Shown: one piece after another, positions 18,139 through 22,932 of the stretch
How positions within the stretch are numbered: position 1 is the first letter of the stretch
Layout: the number at the start of each line of letters is the position of its first letter
From: Nocardioides glacieisoli
GTDB lineage: Bacteria > Actinomycetota > Actinomycetes > Propionibacteriales > Nocardioidaceae
DNA: 64,000 nt
Direction of reading: 5' to 3'
Assembly (NCBI RefSeq): GCF_004137245.1
Contig: NZ_SDWS01000002.1
Coordinates: 248,001 to 312,000 of the forward strand
Made by a program: the position numbers and the translations under genes
The notes under the pieces: generated by a model
The model's input: the letters and a program-made list of their open reading frames with translations, nothing else
Databases searched by the model: none
Told to the model about the DNA's origin: nothing

Positions 18139-19083
18139 ATGCAGGAGGCGCCGGAGCGGTTGCAGGTGCGGCTCGTCGCCGATGCCTCCAGCGTCCCCGC
18201 CGCTCGCCGGTTCGTCGTCGACGGCCTCACCGCGTGGGGCGAGGTCGACCTGGTCGAGGCCGCCGAGCTCGTGGTCAGCGAGCTGTCGGGCAACGCTGCG
18301 CTGCATGCCGCGGCCGAGTTCATGCACGTCACGCTCGAGCGCGGTGCGCGTGCCGGCGGGATCCGGGTGTCCGTCGAGGACGACGGCCCGATCCCGGTCG
18401 ACGCGGTGCGCCCGCGGGCGCACCGCGACCACGATGCCGACTGGCCGGACCTGGGCGCCACCGGACGCGGACTGGTCATCGTGGCGATGGTCGCCCACCT
18501 GTGGGGGGCCGACGACACCGCCGGCGGCAAGCGGGTGTGGGCCGACCTCGTCGACCACGACGAGGTGCACCAGCGTGTCGAGCCCGAGGGCGTACGCGAC
18601 ACGGACGCCGCGCCGGGCACCCTGCCACCGGGCTGGGCGCTCGTGCGACTGCTGGACTGCCCGGTCGAGCTGAGCCTCCAGCAGGACAGCCACCTCGACG
18701 AGCTGGTGCGCGAGCTGCAGCTGCTGTCGCTCGACGCCGGCAACGACGACTCCGCCGCGCTGGCCGAGGAGATCCACGGCCTCCTGGTGTCCCCGACGCA
18801 CGCCCGCCTCACCGGCCGGCGGGCCGCCGAACGGGCGCGCGCCGAGGGCATGGCCTCGGTCGACATCGAGATGGCGATGCCCCGCGAGCTCGGCGTCCTG
18901 GTCGCTCGGTTGCAGGAGGCGGTGAAGCGGGCCGACGTGCTCTGCGAGGACGGGCGCCTGCTGACCCTCGCCTCGCCGCCGGAGCTGCGGACCCTCCGCG
19001 CCTGGATGACCCACGAGGTGTTCGGGCAGACGACGCACGAGGCTGCGCCCGTGCCGTGGCCTGCATGGCCGCGCAGCGCCTGA
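18139..19083 (+). CDS. RsbW-like ATP-binding (anti-sigma type) protein
   Basis: A 314-residue protein. Residues about 1-135 form a GHKL ATPase: the N-box is EAAELVVSELSGNAALHA, with IRVSVEDDGP and TGRGLVIVAMVA as the G boxes. This resembles RsbW/SpoIIAB switch kinases, which act in partner-switching control of sigma factors. The remaining 180 residues are helical and unassigned. No anti-anti-sigma gene is next to it. TAGCCT lies 7 nt before the ATG. A link to the nearby sigma operon (19096-22818, opposite strand) is only positional. Confidence 0.75.
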   Translation: MQEAPERLQVRLVADASSVPAARRFVVDGLTAWGEVDLVEAAELVVSELSGNAALHAAAEFMHVTLERGARAGGIRVSVEDDGPIPVDAVRPRAHRDHDADWPDLGATGRGLVIVAMVAHLWGADDTAGGKRVWADLVDHDEVHQRVEPEGVRDTDAAPGTLPPGWALVRLLDCPVELSLQQDSHLDELVRELQLLSLDAGNDDSAALAEEIHGLLVSPTHARLTGRRAAERARAEGMASVDIEMAMPRELGVLVARLQEAVKRADVLCEDGRLLTLASPPELRTLRAWMTHEVFGQTTHEAAPVPWPAWPRSA

Positions 19084-19095
19084 GCGGCCGGTGCG

Positions 19096-19677
19096 TCAGG
19101 GCACCCGCTCCCAGGCGGAGCTCGTGAACAGCGCACGACGCACGTCGCACGCGTCGTCGACCAGGCTGAACGCCAGCAGGTCGTCGGTGAGCGACCACCT
19201 GTAGGTGCCGACGTACCCGTTGTCGGCCTGGCACCCGGGCTCCACGAGCGCGTCGGTGCGGAGGAGCTCGTCCTCCACCCGCCAGGCGGCGCCGGTCGTT
19301 GCACCGGTGTACGACGGCGGCGGCCGCAGCTCGAGAGCACCGTCGGCCTCCAGGGAGATGACCCACCGACCGACCAGGCCTTCGATGCGCGCCACCGGCG
19401 AGTCCGGCACGTCCACCACGTAGGTCCCGATGAGGGCACGCTCGGACGGCTCTGCCGCCACCACGTCCGGGGTGTCCGGACGTCCCTGCTGGAACGCGGC
19501 GCCCACGCCGATGACGGCCACCAGGGCGGCGGCGACGAGCGCGGACAGGGCCGCGTGGGTCGCACGCGTGCGCCTGGTGACCCGCTGCTCCACCCGGCGG
19601 AGAGCGGCCAGGGTGTCGAGCCCGTGGTCGGGGTCCGCCGGGTGCAGTCCGTTGCGCAGCCGCTGGTCAATCGACAT
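19096..19677 (-). CDS. Single-pass membrane protein with extracellular beta domain, last gene of sigma operon
   Basis: A 193-residue protein. Residues 1-40 are cytoplasmic and basic (RVEQRVTRRTRATH), followed by one helix (about 41-63). The outer part begins ALIGTYVVDVPD and has beta-strands with GRWVISLEADGALELRP and YRWSLTDDLLAFSL, a lipocalin-like pattern related to the C-terminal parts of the two lipoproteins upstream. It starts inside the sigma-factor gene (11-bp overlap). Position and topology suggest an anti-sigma or sensor role, but no zinc anti-sigma motif is visible. Confidence 0.7.
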   Translation of the reverse strand: MSIDQRLRNGLHPADPDHGLDTLAALRRVEQRVTRRTRATHAALSALVAAALVAVIGVGAAFQQGRPDTPDVVAAEPSERALIGTYVVDVPDSPVARIEGLVGRWVISLEADGALELRPPPSYTGATTGAAWRVEDELLRTDALVEPGCQADNGYVGTYRWSLTDDLLAFSLVDDACDVRRALFTSSAWERVP

Positions 19678-20170
19678 CGGTGTGCACCTCCGTCCGGAGG
19701 AGGGCGCCGAGGCGCTTGCGCGCCTTGTGCAGGTGCACCCAGCCCGTGGCCGGCGTGCAGCCCAGGATCTCGGCGATCTGGTCCATCGGCCGGTCCTCGT
19801 AGTAGAAGAGCACCACCACCGATCGTTGCTGCGGTGAGAGCGTCCGGATCGCGGCGACCAGCTCCTCGTCCACCTCGACCGGTCCGCCGGCGGCAGCGGG
19901 GCGAGGAGTCTCGTGGTCGCGGCGGGTCAGCACGAGACGCCTCTGGTCACGCCTGGCCTCCTTGACCGCGAGCCGGATGGCGACCCGGCGCAGCCAGGCC
20001 GACGGGGACTCGTACTGATGGACCTTCGACCAGTGCCGCAGCAGCTGGACGAACGCGTCCTGCGCGATCTCCTCGGCGCGCGCGTGGTCGTGCAGCACGA
20101 GGTAGGTGGTGCGCACGACGGACGGGTAGTCGTTGACGAACAACCACCTGAACTCCTCGTCCGCATCCAC
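19667..20170 (-). CDS. SigE-family ECF RNA polymerase sigma factor
   Basis: A 167-residue protein. Region 2 is seen in NDYPSVVRTTYLVLHDHARAEEIAQDAFVQ, and region 4 in LSPQQRSVVVLFYYEDRPMDQIAEILGCTPATG, whose last part is the -35-binding helix-turn-helix. It directs RNA polymerase to a small regulon. It starts at GTG 20170 with GGAAGGGG upstream, 18 bp after the hydrolase gene, and overlaps the TM protein gene after it. The operon order (lipoprotein, lipoprotein, sigma, TM protein) suggests the sigma factor controls its own envelope partners. Confidence 0.9.
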   Translation of the reverse strand: MDADEEFRWLFVNDYPSVVRTTYLVLHDHARAEEIAQDAFVQLLRHWSKVHQYESPSAWLRRVAIRLAVKEARRDQRRLVLTRRDHETPRPAAAGGPVEVDEELVAAIRTLSPQQRSVVVLFYYEDRPMDQIAEILGCTPATGWVHLHKARKRLGALLRTEVHTDVD

Positions 20171-20188
20171 GCCCTCGCCCCTTCCCGC

Positions 20189-22237
20189 TCACCCGGCACG
20201 CTGGTGCGCGTCGGCGGCGAAGTACGCCCACAAGTAGGCCATCTGGGGCAGCCCGTTGTACACGGGCAACGTCGTCGCGACAGGCCTGAACCGGACGCGG
20301 CCGTCCGCGACCGTCCATCGCAAGGTGTCGGTGCTGCCGGCCGCGTCGTCGACGATCTCGACGCGGTCTCCGGTCACCGTCATCGCCGCTTCCCAGCCCA
20401 CCTGCCACACCCCGTCCGAGCCGAGGTAGGCCTGGCTGAACTGGCCGTCCTCGAAGGTGGTGCGCGTCCGGACGCCCTCGGCGCCGATCTCCTCCGAGGC
20501 GAAGAACCTCTCGGCGAGGCCGTCGAAGCCGCCCTCGGCCAGTGCTCGACGGATCTCGGTGCGGGAGAGGTCGGCCTCCCACACTCCCTCCAGCCCGGCG
20601 TCGCTCGCCCCGGTGCCCGTCCCGGGATCGGGTGCCTTCGTGGGTGACGGAACCGCCCCGAGCTCGGCCAGGTCGGTCGTCCAGTCCGTGGTCTGGCCGG
20701 CGAGGCAGTCCTGCTCCTCGGCGCTGAGGTCGAGGTCGTCGAGCCAGGCGCCGCGGATCGACACCAGGCAGTCGGACCCCACCACGTTGTGCCCGCCGGT
20801 CGGGTCCACCACGAGGGTGAGCCCGCTCAGCCCGGCCAGGCCGTCGCGCACCACGGCCTCCGGGGAGTAGGGCGTGAACGCCCCCACCATCGTGAGCACC
20901 GGGATGTCGGACTGCACCGGGGCGTCGACATCGGCAGCGTCCTCCACGGTGACGGGCCACGCGTCGCAGACGTCGACGTAGGGGCTGTTGCCGTACGCGG
21001 CGGCGAGGGCCGTCCCCTCCGTGCCGGCCGCGCTGGTGGTCTCGGCTGCGTCGTGCCTCGGTGCGATGTCGTGGCACAGCACCGACCACGCGGTGCCCAT
21101 GCTGGCGCGGTGCTGGGGCAGGCACTTGGGCAGGTAGCCCAGGCAGTACGTCGGCGAGCCGGCGACCACCGTGGTGAGCGTGTCGGCCAGCTGGTCGAGG
21201 CGTCCGGAGGCGGCGCCGTCCAGGATCGCAGGGACCGATGCTGCTCGCATGAACGAGCCGCTGCTCCCGCCGTCGGACAGCATCCCGCGCAGCAACCGCA
21301 GCAGCAGCGCGTCGTCGACGAGCACGTCGACGGGCTCCTGTCCTGTGGCCGTCATCGCCACGGTGACCGGGTCGTCGCCGAGCGCGGTGAGCGCCTTGTC
21401 CAGCAGCATGTCGGCGTCCGGGAAGGCGTCAGCACAGGTGTTGTCGGAGGCGCACGCTGCCAGGACAGTGGCCAGGCTCTCGCGAGTGCTCTCCACGGCC
21501 AGGAGCCGCGGGTCGGCACCGGGGACCTCGGGCGAGTCGAGCAACACCGACCGCACGTGGTCGGTGCCCTGGCGCATCATCTCGAGCGCGATGCGGGACG
21601 CCGTGCCGTAGGAGACGACGTTCCACTCCTCGATCCCCAGGGCCGTGCGCAGGTCCTCGGCGTCTGCCGCCATCGCGGTGAGGTGGTAGGCGGACAGGTC
21701 GACCCCGTCCGCGGTGAGGCGCTCGTGGCAGGCGGCGACCGCGTCGAGGAAGGTGGTGCGCGTCTGCACGTCGTCGGTGGCCGTCGCCAGCGTGGTCGCG
21801 CGGATCTCGTCCACCTCGGGACACGCGAGGCTCGGCTCGGAGTGGCCGACGCCGCGGGTGTCCATCAGGATCACCTCACGTCCGACCCGTTGCGCGAGCG
21901 GCGCGATGCCACCGTAGTTGGGCAGGCTGGCGAGGTCCGTGCCGGCGACGAACATCGGGTCCTCGTGCAGCACCTCGGGCGGCTCGATGCGCGCCACGAA
22001 GAGGCGTACGTCGTTCCCGGCCGCGGCCCGGTCCTCCGGCACGGTCAGGAAGCCGCAGGTGACCTCGCCGACGACGACCGACGCCACGTCCGCGGGGCAG
22101 TCGGTCTCGGCGAAGGCGGCGGCGGACGCGGTGCCGCCGAGGGTGGACGCGGTCGGCTCAGGGGTCTCCGTGTCGGCCGCCGTGCAACCGCCGAGGACGA
22201 TCACCAGCGTCAGCGCAAGTGCTGCGACCCGCGTCAC
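20189..22237 (-). CDS. Lipoprotein: alpha/beta-hydrolase domain, triad degenerate, plus C-terminal beta domain
   Basis: A 682-residue protein. The lipobox LGGC at about residues 15-18 predicts anchoring to the outer face of the membrane. Residues about 40-530 follow the TAP-like/tripeptidyl-peptidase alpha/beta-hydrolase family. The nucleophile elbow reads VVSYGT, with Ser209 but Val in place of the first Gly. The position where an acid is expected reads GAFTPYSP (Thr455), while His483 in GGHN is kept. Activity is therefore doubtful. Residues about 549-682 (GLEGVWEADLSRTEI onward) match the domain of the 22234 lipoprotein. GTG start overlaps the upstream stop (GTGA). Confidence 0.75.
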   Translation of the reverse strand: MTRVAALALTLVIVLGGCTAADTETPEPTASTLGGTASAAAFAETDCPADVASVVVGEVTCGFLTVPEDRAAAGNDVRLFVARIEPPEVLHEDPMFVAGTDLASLPNYGGIAPLAQRVGREVILMDTRGVGHSEPSLACPEVDEIRATTLATATDDVQTRTTFLDAVAACHERLTADGVDLSAYHLTAMAADAEDLRTALGIEEWNVVSYGTASRIALEMMRQGTDHVRSVLLDSPEVPGADPRLLAVESTRESLATVLAACASDNTCADAFPDADMLLDKALTALGDDPVTVAMTATGQEPVDVLVDDALLLRLLRGMLSDGGSSGSFMRAASVPAILDGAASGRLDQLADTLTTVVAGSPTYCLGYLPKCLPQHRASMGTAWSVLCHDIAPRHDAAETTSAAGTEGTALAAAYGNSPYVDVCDAWPVTVEDAADVDAPVQSDIPVLTMVGAFTPYSPEAVVRDGLAGLSGLTLVVDPTGGHNVVGSDCLVSIRGAWLDDLDLSAEEQDCLAGQTTDWTTDLAELGAVPSPTKAPDPGTGTGASDAGLEGVWEADLSRTEIRRALAEGGFDGLAERFFASEEIGAEGVRTRTTFEDGQFSQAYLGSDGVWQVGWEAAMTVTGDRVEIVDDAAGSTDTLRWTVADGRVRFRPVATTLPVYNGLPQMAYLWAYFAADAHQRAG

Positions 22238-22818
22238 GACATGCTCCGGAAGGAACTCGCGGTGTAGAGGCCGCGCAGGAAGGTCTCGGCGGGCACGCCC
22301 TCGTAGGGCGGTTCGGTCGTCGAGACCAGGTCGAGGGTGAGCTCGTCGCCGGCGACCTTCCAGCGGAAGGTGTTCCTCCCGCCGGAGCTCGGCCGGACGA
22401 CCACCTTCGTGCCGTCGAGCTCGAAGCTCCCGCGATCCGCCAACGCAGTGGCCCCGCCGTCGATGCTGCTCGACAGGGTCCAGAAGCCCCCACCGAGCTC
22501 GAGGGTCAGGTCCACCGCGTCTCCGTACTCGGACAGGAACGTGTCGGCATGAGTTCCGAGGCCGTGCGCCGCCAGGACCCGGCGGAAGTCGGCCGCGGCC
22601 AGGGTCGGGGTGGTCCAGGTGCCGTCGATCGGGGTGGCTTCAGCCGCCTCGGTCTCAGTCTCGGGTTCCGGCGGGGCCTCGGTCGAGCTGGAGGTCGGTG
22701 TGTTCGCGTCCTCCGGCGAGCCGCCGTCGGACGACCCGCAGCCGGCGGTGAGGGTGAGCACACCCAGCACGGCGACGGCCACGGTGCGGTGGCGTGGCGA
22801 GCGGTGGCGCTTGATCAT
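22234..22818 (-). CDS. Lipoprotein with lipocalin-like beta domain, first gene of sigma operon
   Basis: A 194-residue protein. The lipobox TAGC follows a basic, hydrophobic signal. A Ser/Thr/Glu/Pro-rich linker (about 28-62) leads to a domain of about 130 residues that starts IDGTWTTPTLAAADFRRVL. It shares segment order and ending (a Trp/Tyr-rich close after a Pro-Pro-Tyr/Pro-Val-Tyr turn) with the end of the 20189 protein. GAGGA precedes the ATG. The function is unknown; an extracytoplasmic sensor or sigma-regulon client is possible. Confidence 0.75.
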   Translation of the reverse strand: MIKRHRSPRHRTVAVAVLGVLTLTAGCGSSDGGSPEDANTPTSSSTEAPPEPETETEAAEATPIDGTWTTPTLAAADFRRVLAAHGLGTHADTFLSEYGDAVDLTLELGGGFWTLSSSIDGGATALADRGSFELDGTKVVVRPSSGGRNTFRWKVAGDELTLDLVSTTEPPYEGVPAETFLRGLYTASSFRSMS

Positions 22819-22903
22819 GATGATCGTCCTCGGGGTCGGTGGTCCCTTGTCGACTCATACAGGACCGGCGCCCTCGTCCACCTTTACCGCGGCACATACT
22901 TCC

Positions 22904-22932
22904 TTGTGAGTGAGTGCTCACTCACTTAGACT
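22904..22932 (+). promoter_or_regulatory. tetR promoter with embedded 20-bp operator
   Basis: TTGTGA (22904-22909), a 17-bp spacer and TAGACT (22927-22932) form a good promoter. The operator GTGAGTGAG-TG-CTCACTCAC (22906-22925) is a palindrome with 9-bp arms lying between and across these elements, so bound repressor would block RNA polymerase. The start codon is 7 nt beyond the -10 hexamer. Confidence 0.85.

Follow-up and report, generated by a model that had tools for sequence, protein, structure and literature searches.

Gene organization

The analyzed window is a stretch of 64,000 nucleotides (G000:C22:248001-312000) from the 4.58-Mb genome of Nocardioides glacieisoli (71% GC), and the system considered here is a compact operon of four genes within it, A, B, sigma, and D, encoding two lipoproteins, a sigma factor of the extracytoplasmic function (ECF) type, and a transmembrane (TM) protein. 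The genes are transcribed in the order A, B, sigma, D, all from the minus strand (22818-19096); A and B overlap by 4 bp, B and sigma are separated by 18 bp, and sigma and D overlap by 11 bp. No sigma-70 promoter or terminator was found within the operon. The tight packing of a lipoprotein, a hydrolase lipoprotein, a sigma factor, and a TM protein, in this order, had been described in the first-pass annotation, and the four open reading frames are indeed found at this place. The genes and their domains are as follows.

22818-22234, minus strand: gene A, a 194-amino-acid lipoprotein with lipobox LTAGC (Cys27), a Pro/Thr-rich linker, and a C-terminal domain predicted to be calycin-like
22237..22644, minus strand: A-type barrel domain of gene A (amino acids 59-194), predicted from the AlphaFold2 model, Foldseek, and VIA
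22237-20189, minus strand: gene B, a 682-amino-acid lipoprotein (lipobox LGGC) with a TAP/Hip1-type alpha/beta-hydrolase domain and a C-terminal A-type domain
20663..22105, minus strand: alpha/beta-hydrolase domain of B (about amino acids 45-525), predicted inactive (Pfam Abhydrolase_1, 3e-11)
21593..21613, minus strand: degenerate nucleophile elbow of B, SYGTASR, with Gly211 at the expected Ser (family alignment)
20192..20593, minus strand: C-terminal A-type barrel domain of B (amino acids 549-682; blastp to A, 4e-8, and profile match)
20170-19667, minus strand: ECF sigma factor, 167 amino acids, regions 2 and 4 (Pfam Sigma70_r2, 1e-10; Sigma70_r4_2, 4e-15)
19677-19096, minus strand: gene D, a 193-amino-acid single-pass membrane protein, putative anti-sigma factor (sequence and sigma-adjacent homologues)
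19552..19677, minus strand: cytoplasmic N-terminus of D (amino acids 1-42), putative sigma-binding clasp (alignment of 17 homologues)
19495..19551, minus strand: TM segment of D (about amino acids 43-61; sequence, with positive residues commoner on the N-terminal side)
19099..19443, minus strand: D-type outer domain (amino acids 79-193, 115 residues; profile comparison to the A-type, alignment, and a model)

Kinship and predicted fold of the beta domains

The C-terminal domains of A and B are related at the level of blastp (27% identity over 146 amino acids, E 4e-8). The outer domain of D has a marginal blastp match with the A domain (8e-4) and no detectable one with the B domain, and its kinship becomes visible with profiles and domain-swapped homologues. 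Comparison of hidden Markov models (HMM-HMM) matches the A-type profile with the D-type at 92.9%, with a third domain type from other TM proteins (see below) at 96.7%, and with the lipoproteins of genome G592 at 97.5%, the controls giving at most 2.2% in 60 column shuffles of each (at most 1.6% for the D-type) and <=0.4% for reversed alignments; the third type matches the D-type directly at a weak 21.9%. By these profiles, the outer domain of D is a remote relative of the A and B domains. The three related beta domains proposed earlier, with unrelated folds named as the opposite outcome, are hence homologous by profile, D being linked to the others in this way and A to B already by blastp.

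AlphaFold2, supplied with the A domain and three relatives, yields a confident model (predicted local distance difference test score, pLDDT, 92.5; predicted template modeling score, pTM, 0.84) that consists of a strand, two helices forming a lid, seven strands, and a C-terminal helix. Against the PDB, Foldseek ranks proteins that bind fatty acids or bile acids first (best E 6e-4); of the 50 listed matches, almost all are from this fatty-acid-binding protein (FABP) family, and NlpE is among the remainder. VIA realignment places lipocalin-like bacterial proteins on top (Z 9.6-9.0; 4gzv, Z 9.6) and gives Z 7.6 for VtrC, 6.9 for ToxR/ToxS, and 6.5 for NlpE, where values under 8 may reflect no more than a common arrangement. 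As modeled, the A domain is a calycin-like barrel, and the same fold is assigned to the B domain from its sequence kinship to A. No Pfam family matches A above the cut-off, and a search with the A profile against the sequences of PDB chains returns chance matches only; Lipocalin_4 weakly matches one relative of A (6.7e-4 for the domain alone; 16.6 bits against the cut-off of 22.4 for the whole protein).

Sigma factor and membrane protein D

Both Pfam sigma domains lie above the cut-off in the 167-residue protein, which has no region 3 and is of the ECF type. The earlier label "SigE-family" holds only approximately: TIGR02983 (SigE family) is the best NCBIfam match, yet its 119.3 bits fall below the curated cut-off of 141.55, and relatives of this sigma factor score 100.6-115.4 bits.

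D has a net-positive N-terminus of 42 amino acids, one TM segment, and the 115-residue outer domain. In agreement with the first-pass annotation, which saw no classical zinc anti-sigma factor, D has no H-x3-C-x2-C motif, which marks the zinc-binding subset of class I anti-sigma domains, no Cys before residue 149, and an N-terminus of 42 residues, where a class I domain takes 50 or more. The length of the N-terminus and its conserved MS[IV]DxRLR start would suit a class II (CnrY-like) anti-sigma factor; no sequence kinship to that class is found. In that class, two helices of CnrY wrap CnrH, and a dual binding mode is also known for the BldN/RsbN pair (PMC7406223). The N-termini of the TM proteins have M-S-[IV]-D-x-R-L-R-x-[GA]-[LF] in common (17 homologues aligned), the start being kept only in part in the TM proteins of G592 and G667. 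In the outer domain, Cys149 and Cys177 are conserved in all six aligned D-type domains, which suggests a disulfide. No DNA-binding domain is matched in D, and the output protein is the separate sigma factor, so that D does not belong to the VtrA/VtrC type.

A sigma gene followed by a single-pass TM gene of the D family is seen at 17 loci (the window and 16 further ones). The distances between the sigma factors correlate with those between the TM N-termini (Mantel r=0.73, permutation p=2e-4, 17 pairs), which is consistent with a partnership without proving one, as linked genes share history too. The pairing bears on an alternative that we consider improbable, namely, that D is an accessory membrane protein and that sigma is controlled transcriptionally, like SigE of Streptomyces coelicolor, by CseBC together with the lipoprotein CseA (PMC8999054). 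Such a precedent exists, and D carries no known anti-sigma domain; however, no two-component genes are seen flanking the operon in the window species or in Nocardioides alpinus, the pairing of sigma and TM genes persists among paralogues and as far away as another order, and the sigma factor and the TM N-terminus diverge together.

Hydrolase of B and the distant gene sets

The hydrolase domain noted earlier in the second lipoprotein is real and belongs to the TAP/Hip1-type family; its catalytic nucleophile, however, is lost, B having no Ser in the G-x-S-x-G elbow of active members. The nucleophile column holds Gly in 7/7 sigma-linked hydrolases and Ser in 12 of the 14 non-linked members; the acid position is Thr in both Nocardioides B proteins, and the four other sequences extending over this position have Asp. 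With the nucleophile replaced in every sigma-linked member, and the acid as well in Nocardioides, the enzyme role of B has probably been lost. Two family members that are not beside a sigma gene (L182, 5142-6710; L183, 4904-6400) also have Gly at the nucleophile (GHGAR), so that Ser was apparently lost repeatedly in this family.

Three B-type hydrolases served as queries in a search of 396 genomes of the phylum. Very strong matches outside the genus come from three genomes of a single other order, in another class: G592 has three copies, G667 has two, and G730 also has the hydrolase, which is thus present in 3/27 genomes of that order. In each of them the hydrolase is preceded by a sigma gene and an overlapping TM gene, the second G667 copy being cut by a contig end. 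The distant order has the sigma-TM-hydrolase arrangement rather than A-B-sigma-D; because of this difference in gene order, the association of the three genes is seen to have survived rearrangement. The set is expanded in L167 (G592:C63, 291-10948), where about 11 kb encode, besides the sigma factor and the TM protein, dead hydrolases (three), lipoproteins with a small domain (four), and proteins of the PD40-like type. Weaker hydrolase matches, some of them from another family with large genomes, were rejected, with no such sigma factor nearby and the catalytic Ser mostly kept.

Conservation within the genus

In N. alpinus (G408), all four genes are present, with the gene order unchanged and near-identical spacings, and the flanks are those of the window: TetR and ABC transporter genes at one end, pyridoxamine-phosphate-oxidase-like and citrate-synthase-like genes at the other. 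The identity of the two species is 58% for A, 77% for B, 90% for sigma, and 67% for D. All four genes are under purifying selection, the nonsynonymous rate (dN) being lower than the synonymous one (dS) throughout, with dN/dS of roughly 0.1-0.5, about 0.5 for gene A. Conservation in other genomes, whose absence had been set in advance as the point against the original proposal, is thus seen as the full set in N. alpinus and its core in the distant order.

The A profile matches at E 0.001 in 15/216 genomes of the genus; the two-row alignment of B, used as a search pattern, found N. alpinus alone. Among the weak A-profile matches, L092, L093, L095-L100, L102, and L103 proved to be unrelated proteins or unconvincing and were discarded.

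Further sigma/TM pairs and exchange of outer domains

The source genome holds three sigma/TM pairs in all. Besides the operon, these are L024 (C11:~700.8-702 kb), with an A-type domain in the TM protein (E 3.6e-12 to A), and L090 (C11:~290 kb; 3305-5173 of L090), upstream of rpsP, with the third domain type. Orthologues of the own-genome pairs occur in other species (L051, L089, L121; L094, L101, L122), along with more divergent pairs (L054, L124, L126, L138).

The outer domains are exchanged between these proteins. TM proteins with the D-type domain are those of the window, N. alpinus, G592, and G730; the A-type is carried by L024, L051, L089, L121, L126, and L168; tandem outer domains combine the D-type followed by the A-type in L054 and the D-type followed by the third type in L138. 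In L054, the tandem TM gene is followed by an A-type lipoprotein gene. The TM proteins of G592 and G667 have the N-terminus in common and differ in the outer domain (D-type in G592, A-type in G667). In three species the A-type domain forms the C-terminus of a Peripla_BP_6 lipoprotein (L052, 4751-6457; L123, 4598-6301; L125, 4567-6303).

These data bear on an unlikely, if serious, alternative, in which the anti-sigma role of D holds but A and B merely belong to the regulon, as stress-induced ligand scavengers or envelope protectors with no part in sensing. Genes beside ECF sigma factors are commonly members of their regulons, and A-type domains are also found on sigma-free lipoproteins (L050, L087, L088) and on the solute-binding lipoprotein; on the other hand, the same domain family occurs on homologues of D and is swapped between the TM protein and the lipoproteins, and the loss of Ser in sigma-adjacent hydrolases favors a binding role, though a scavenger could bind too.

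Several side observations concern the same loci. The pairs of L090, L094, L101, and L122 mostly lie directly upstream of rpsP, and the gene after them encodes a secreted protein that is conserved (FTCRxRPTGPVCTG) and has no Pfam match. The Peripla_BP_6/A-type genes of L052 and L123 are convergent with an ECF42-like sigma gene that is preceded by a DGPF/YCII-like gene. L091 (G026:C8:31854-31973) holds what is left of an A-type domain, interrupted by a stop codon; it lies close to a PD40-type lipoprotein resembling the one beside L051, and looks like a decaying copy of an L051-type sigma/TM locus.

Proposed mechanism

We favor, as somewhat the better bet, the reading that the operon is a self-contained signaling unit of an ECF sigma factor and a membrane anti-sigma factor, with lipocalin-like (calycin) receptor domains. 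Most likely, D acts as an anti-sigma factor of the short-clasp type whose outer part is a lipocalin-like sensor, with the lipoproteins A and B as its co-receptors. In the resting state, the 42-residue cytoplasmic N-terminus of D would keep the sigma factor at the membrane, in the manner of the CnrY or RsbN clasps, and outside the membrane the barrel of D would work together with the related barrels of A and B. A hydrophobic ligand or an envelope lesion might bind the barrels of D, A, and B, or alter the contacts among them, and the sigma factor, once freed by D, would transcribe the operon that encodes it and perhaps few other genes. In B, the dead hydrolase could be used for binding or docking instead of catalysis.

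Several results weigh against this reading. Neither Pfam nor NCBIfam has a family above the cut-off for D, and no anti-sigma domain is recognizable in it. The match between the A-type and D-type profiles spans just 56 columns, in the C-terminal half. Of the structure predictions suggested for the outer domains, that of A gave the confident barrel described above, whereas the model of D is poor (pLDDT 64); its best structural matches have Z <=7.0 (the barrel of factor-H-binding protein, 7.0, then avidins; nitrobindin is also among them), and Foldseek finds nothing for it at E 0.001. The solo A-type lipoproteins L050, L087, and L088 have no sigma gene nearby, the domain thus not being exclusive to sigma circuits. 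Finally, among the loci read, the complete four-gene set is present in 2/216 genomes of the genus, those of the window species and N. alpinus.

Relation to known systems

Like the class II CnrY and class III RsbN, D is a TM protein encoded with an ECF sigma factor and has a short inner N-terminus; unlike them, and with no detectable sequence kinship, it has an outer domain that may be calycin-like, given its remote kinship to A, and is accompanied by lipoproteins with predicted barrels, one of them carrying the dead hydrolase. The VtrA/VtrC and ToxR/ToxS systems are encoded by neighboring, often overlapping genes for a membrane regulator and a partner, whose lipocalin-like outer domain binds bile acid or lipid (PMC9214523, PMC4933562); the layout is similar here, and VtrC chains rank among the better structural matches to the A domain (Z 7.6, below the value of 8). 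Those systems, however, use a membrane-tethered winged-helix factor and come from enteric bacteria, whereas here an ECF sigma factor and lipoprotein partners are found in Actinomycetota; PMC9214523 mentions neither sigma factors nor Actinobacteria. NlpE, a lipoprotein activator of the Cpx stress response (PMC6538781), is likewise a lipoprotein with a lipocalin-like barrel that reports the envelope state to a signaling system (Z 6.5 to the A domain, again under 8); it acts on a two-component system, and no sequence kinship to it is found.

The hydrolase domain of B belongs to the family of Hip1/CaeA and tripeptidyl-aminopeptidase-like hydrolases, and differs from these by Gly in place of the catalytic Ser, Thr in place of the acid (in both Nocardioides proteins), and the added C-terminal domain, calycin-like by kinship to A. 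The SigE-CseABC system of S. coelicolor resembles the operon in that an ECF sigma factor is under the influence of a lipoprotein (PMC8999054), but it relies on a two-component system and an ECF39 sigma factor, and has no such TM anti-sigma candidate.

Pfam and NCBIfam contain no model above the cut-off for A, D, or the TM family, and none of the papers found gives a description of them. ECF sigma/anti-sigma pairs themselves being already known, we regard the operon as a variant of this kind of signaling, reminiscent of VtrA/VtrC and NlpE. More tentatively, and with some doubt, it might represent an undescribed kind of actinobacterial signaling, in which an ECF sigma factor is held by a short clasp at the membrane, a lipocalin/FABP-like outer receptor module is freely exchanged among anti-sigma factors, lipoproteins, and a dead hydrolase, and the barrels together make up a single surface receptor of several parts that recognizes a hydrophobic ligand. 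For many ECF sigma factors no regulator is recognized, class I anti-sigma domains being encoded beside only about one third of them (PMC7406223); orphan ECF/TM pairs would thereby gain a testable architecture, a short TM clasp with a calycin-like receptor, for which the swapped domains and the pseudo-enzyme provide natural controls. Should lipids or antibiotics prove to be ligands of the barrels, the operon would correspond to the VtrA/VtrC bile sensors, with a sigma factor as output, and this in a phylum whose envelope sensing is still little understood.

Upstream and flanking elements

Upstream of the genes considered here, no canonical ECF promoter (GGAAC/T-N-CGT or GTC) was found. The stretch that separates A from the divergent TetR gene contains a block that is unique in the window and partly conserved in N. 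alpinus:

22858..22887, minus strand: candidate promoter block upstream of A, GTAAAGGT N16 CCTGTA (footprint alignment; promoter function putative)

TGGAAnTC-N13-GACTGT precedes the sigma genes of the L024 type in several species, and by eye is seen with small changes before the relatives L051, L089, L121, and L126. In the source genome, TGGAAGTC-N13-GACTGT occurs upstream of the L024 sigma gene (G000:C11:701947-701973). Because this is the single match in the whole genome, it suggests that the L024 paralogue may be self-regulated and have a very small regulon.

On the other flank, a gene with the RsbW/SpoIIAB-type kinase fold (HATPase_c_2, PF13581, 1.9e-8; 18139-19083, plus strand) is convergent with the operon and ends 12 bp from the stop codon of D. 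This closeness and the domain could make it the real regulator of the sigma factor, which we consider highly improbable: the gene is on the opposite strand, RsbW-type proteins act on sigma-B-like rather than on ECF sigma factors, and its absence beside the N. alpinus operon led us to set this candidate aside.

A TetR-type operator, the 20-bp palindrome GTGAGTGAGTGCTCACTCAC (22906-22925), lies between A and the divergent TetR/ABC-transporter genes; it is identical in N. alpinus and may couple the two operons.

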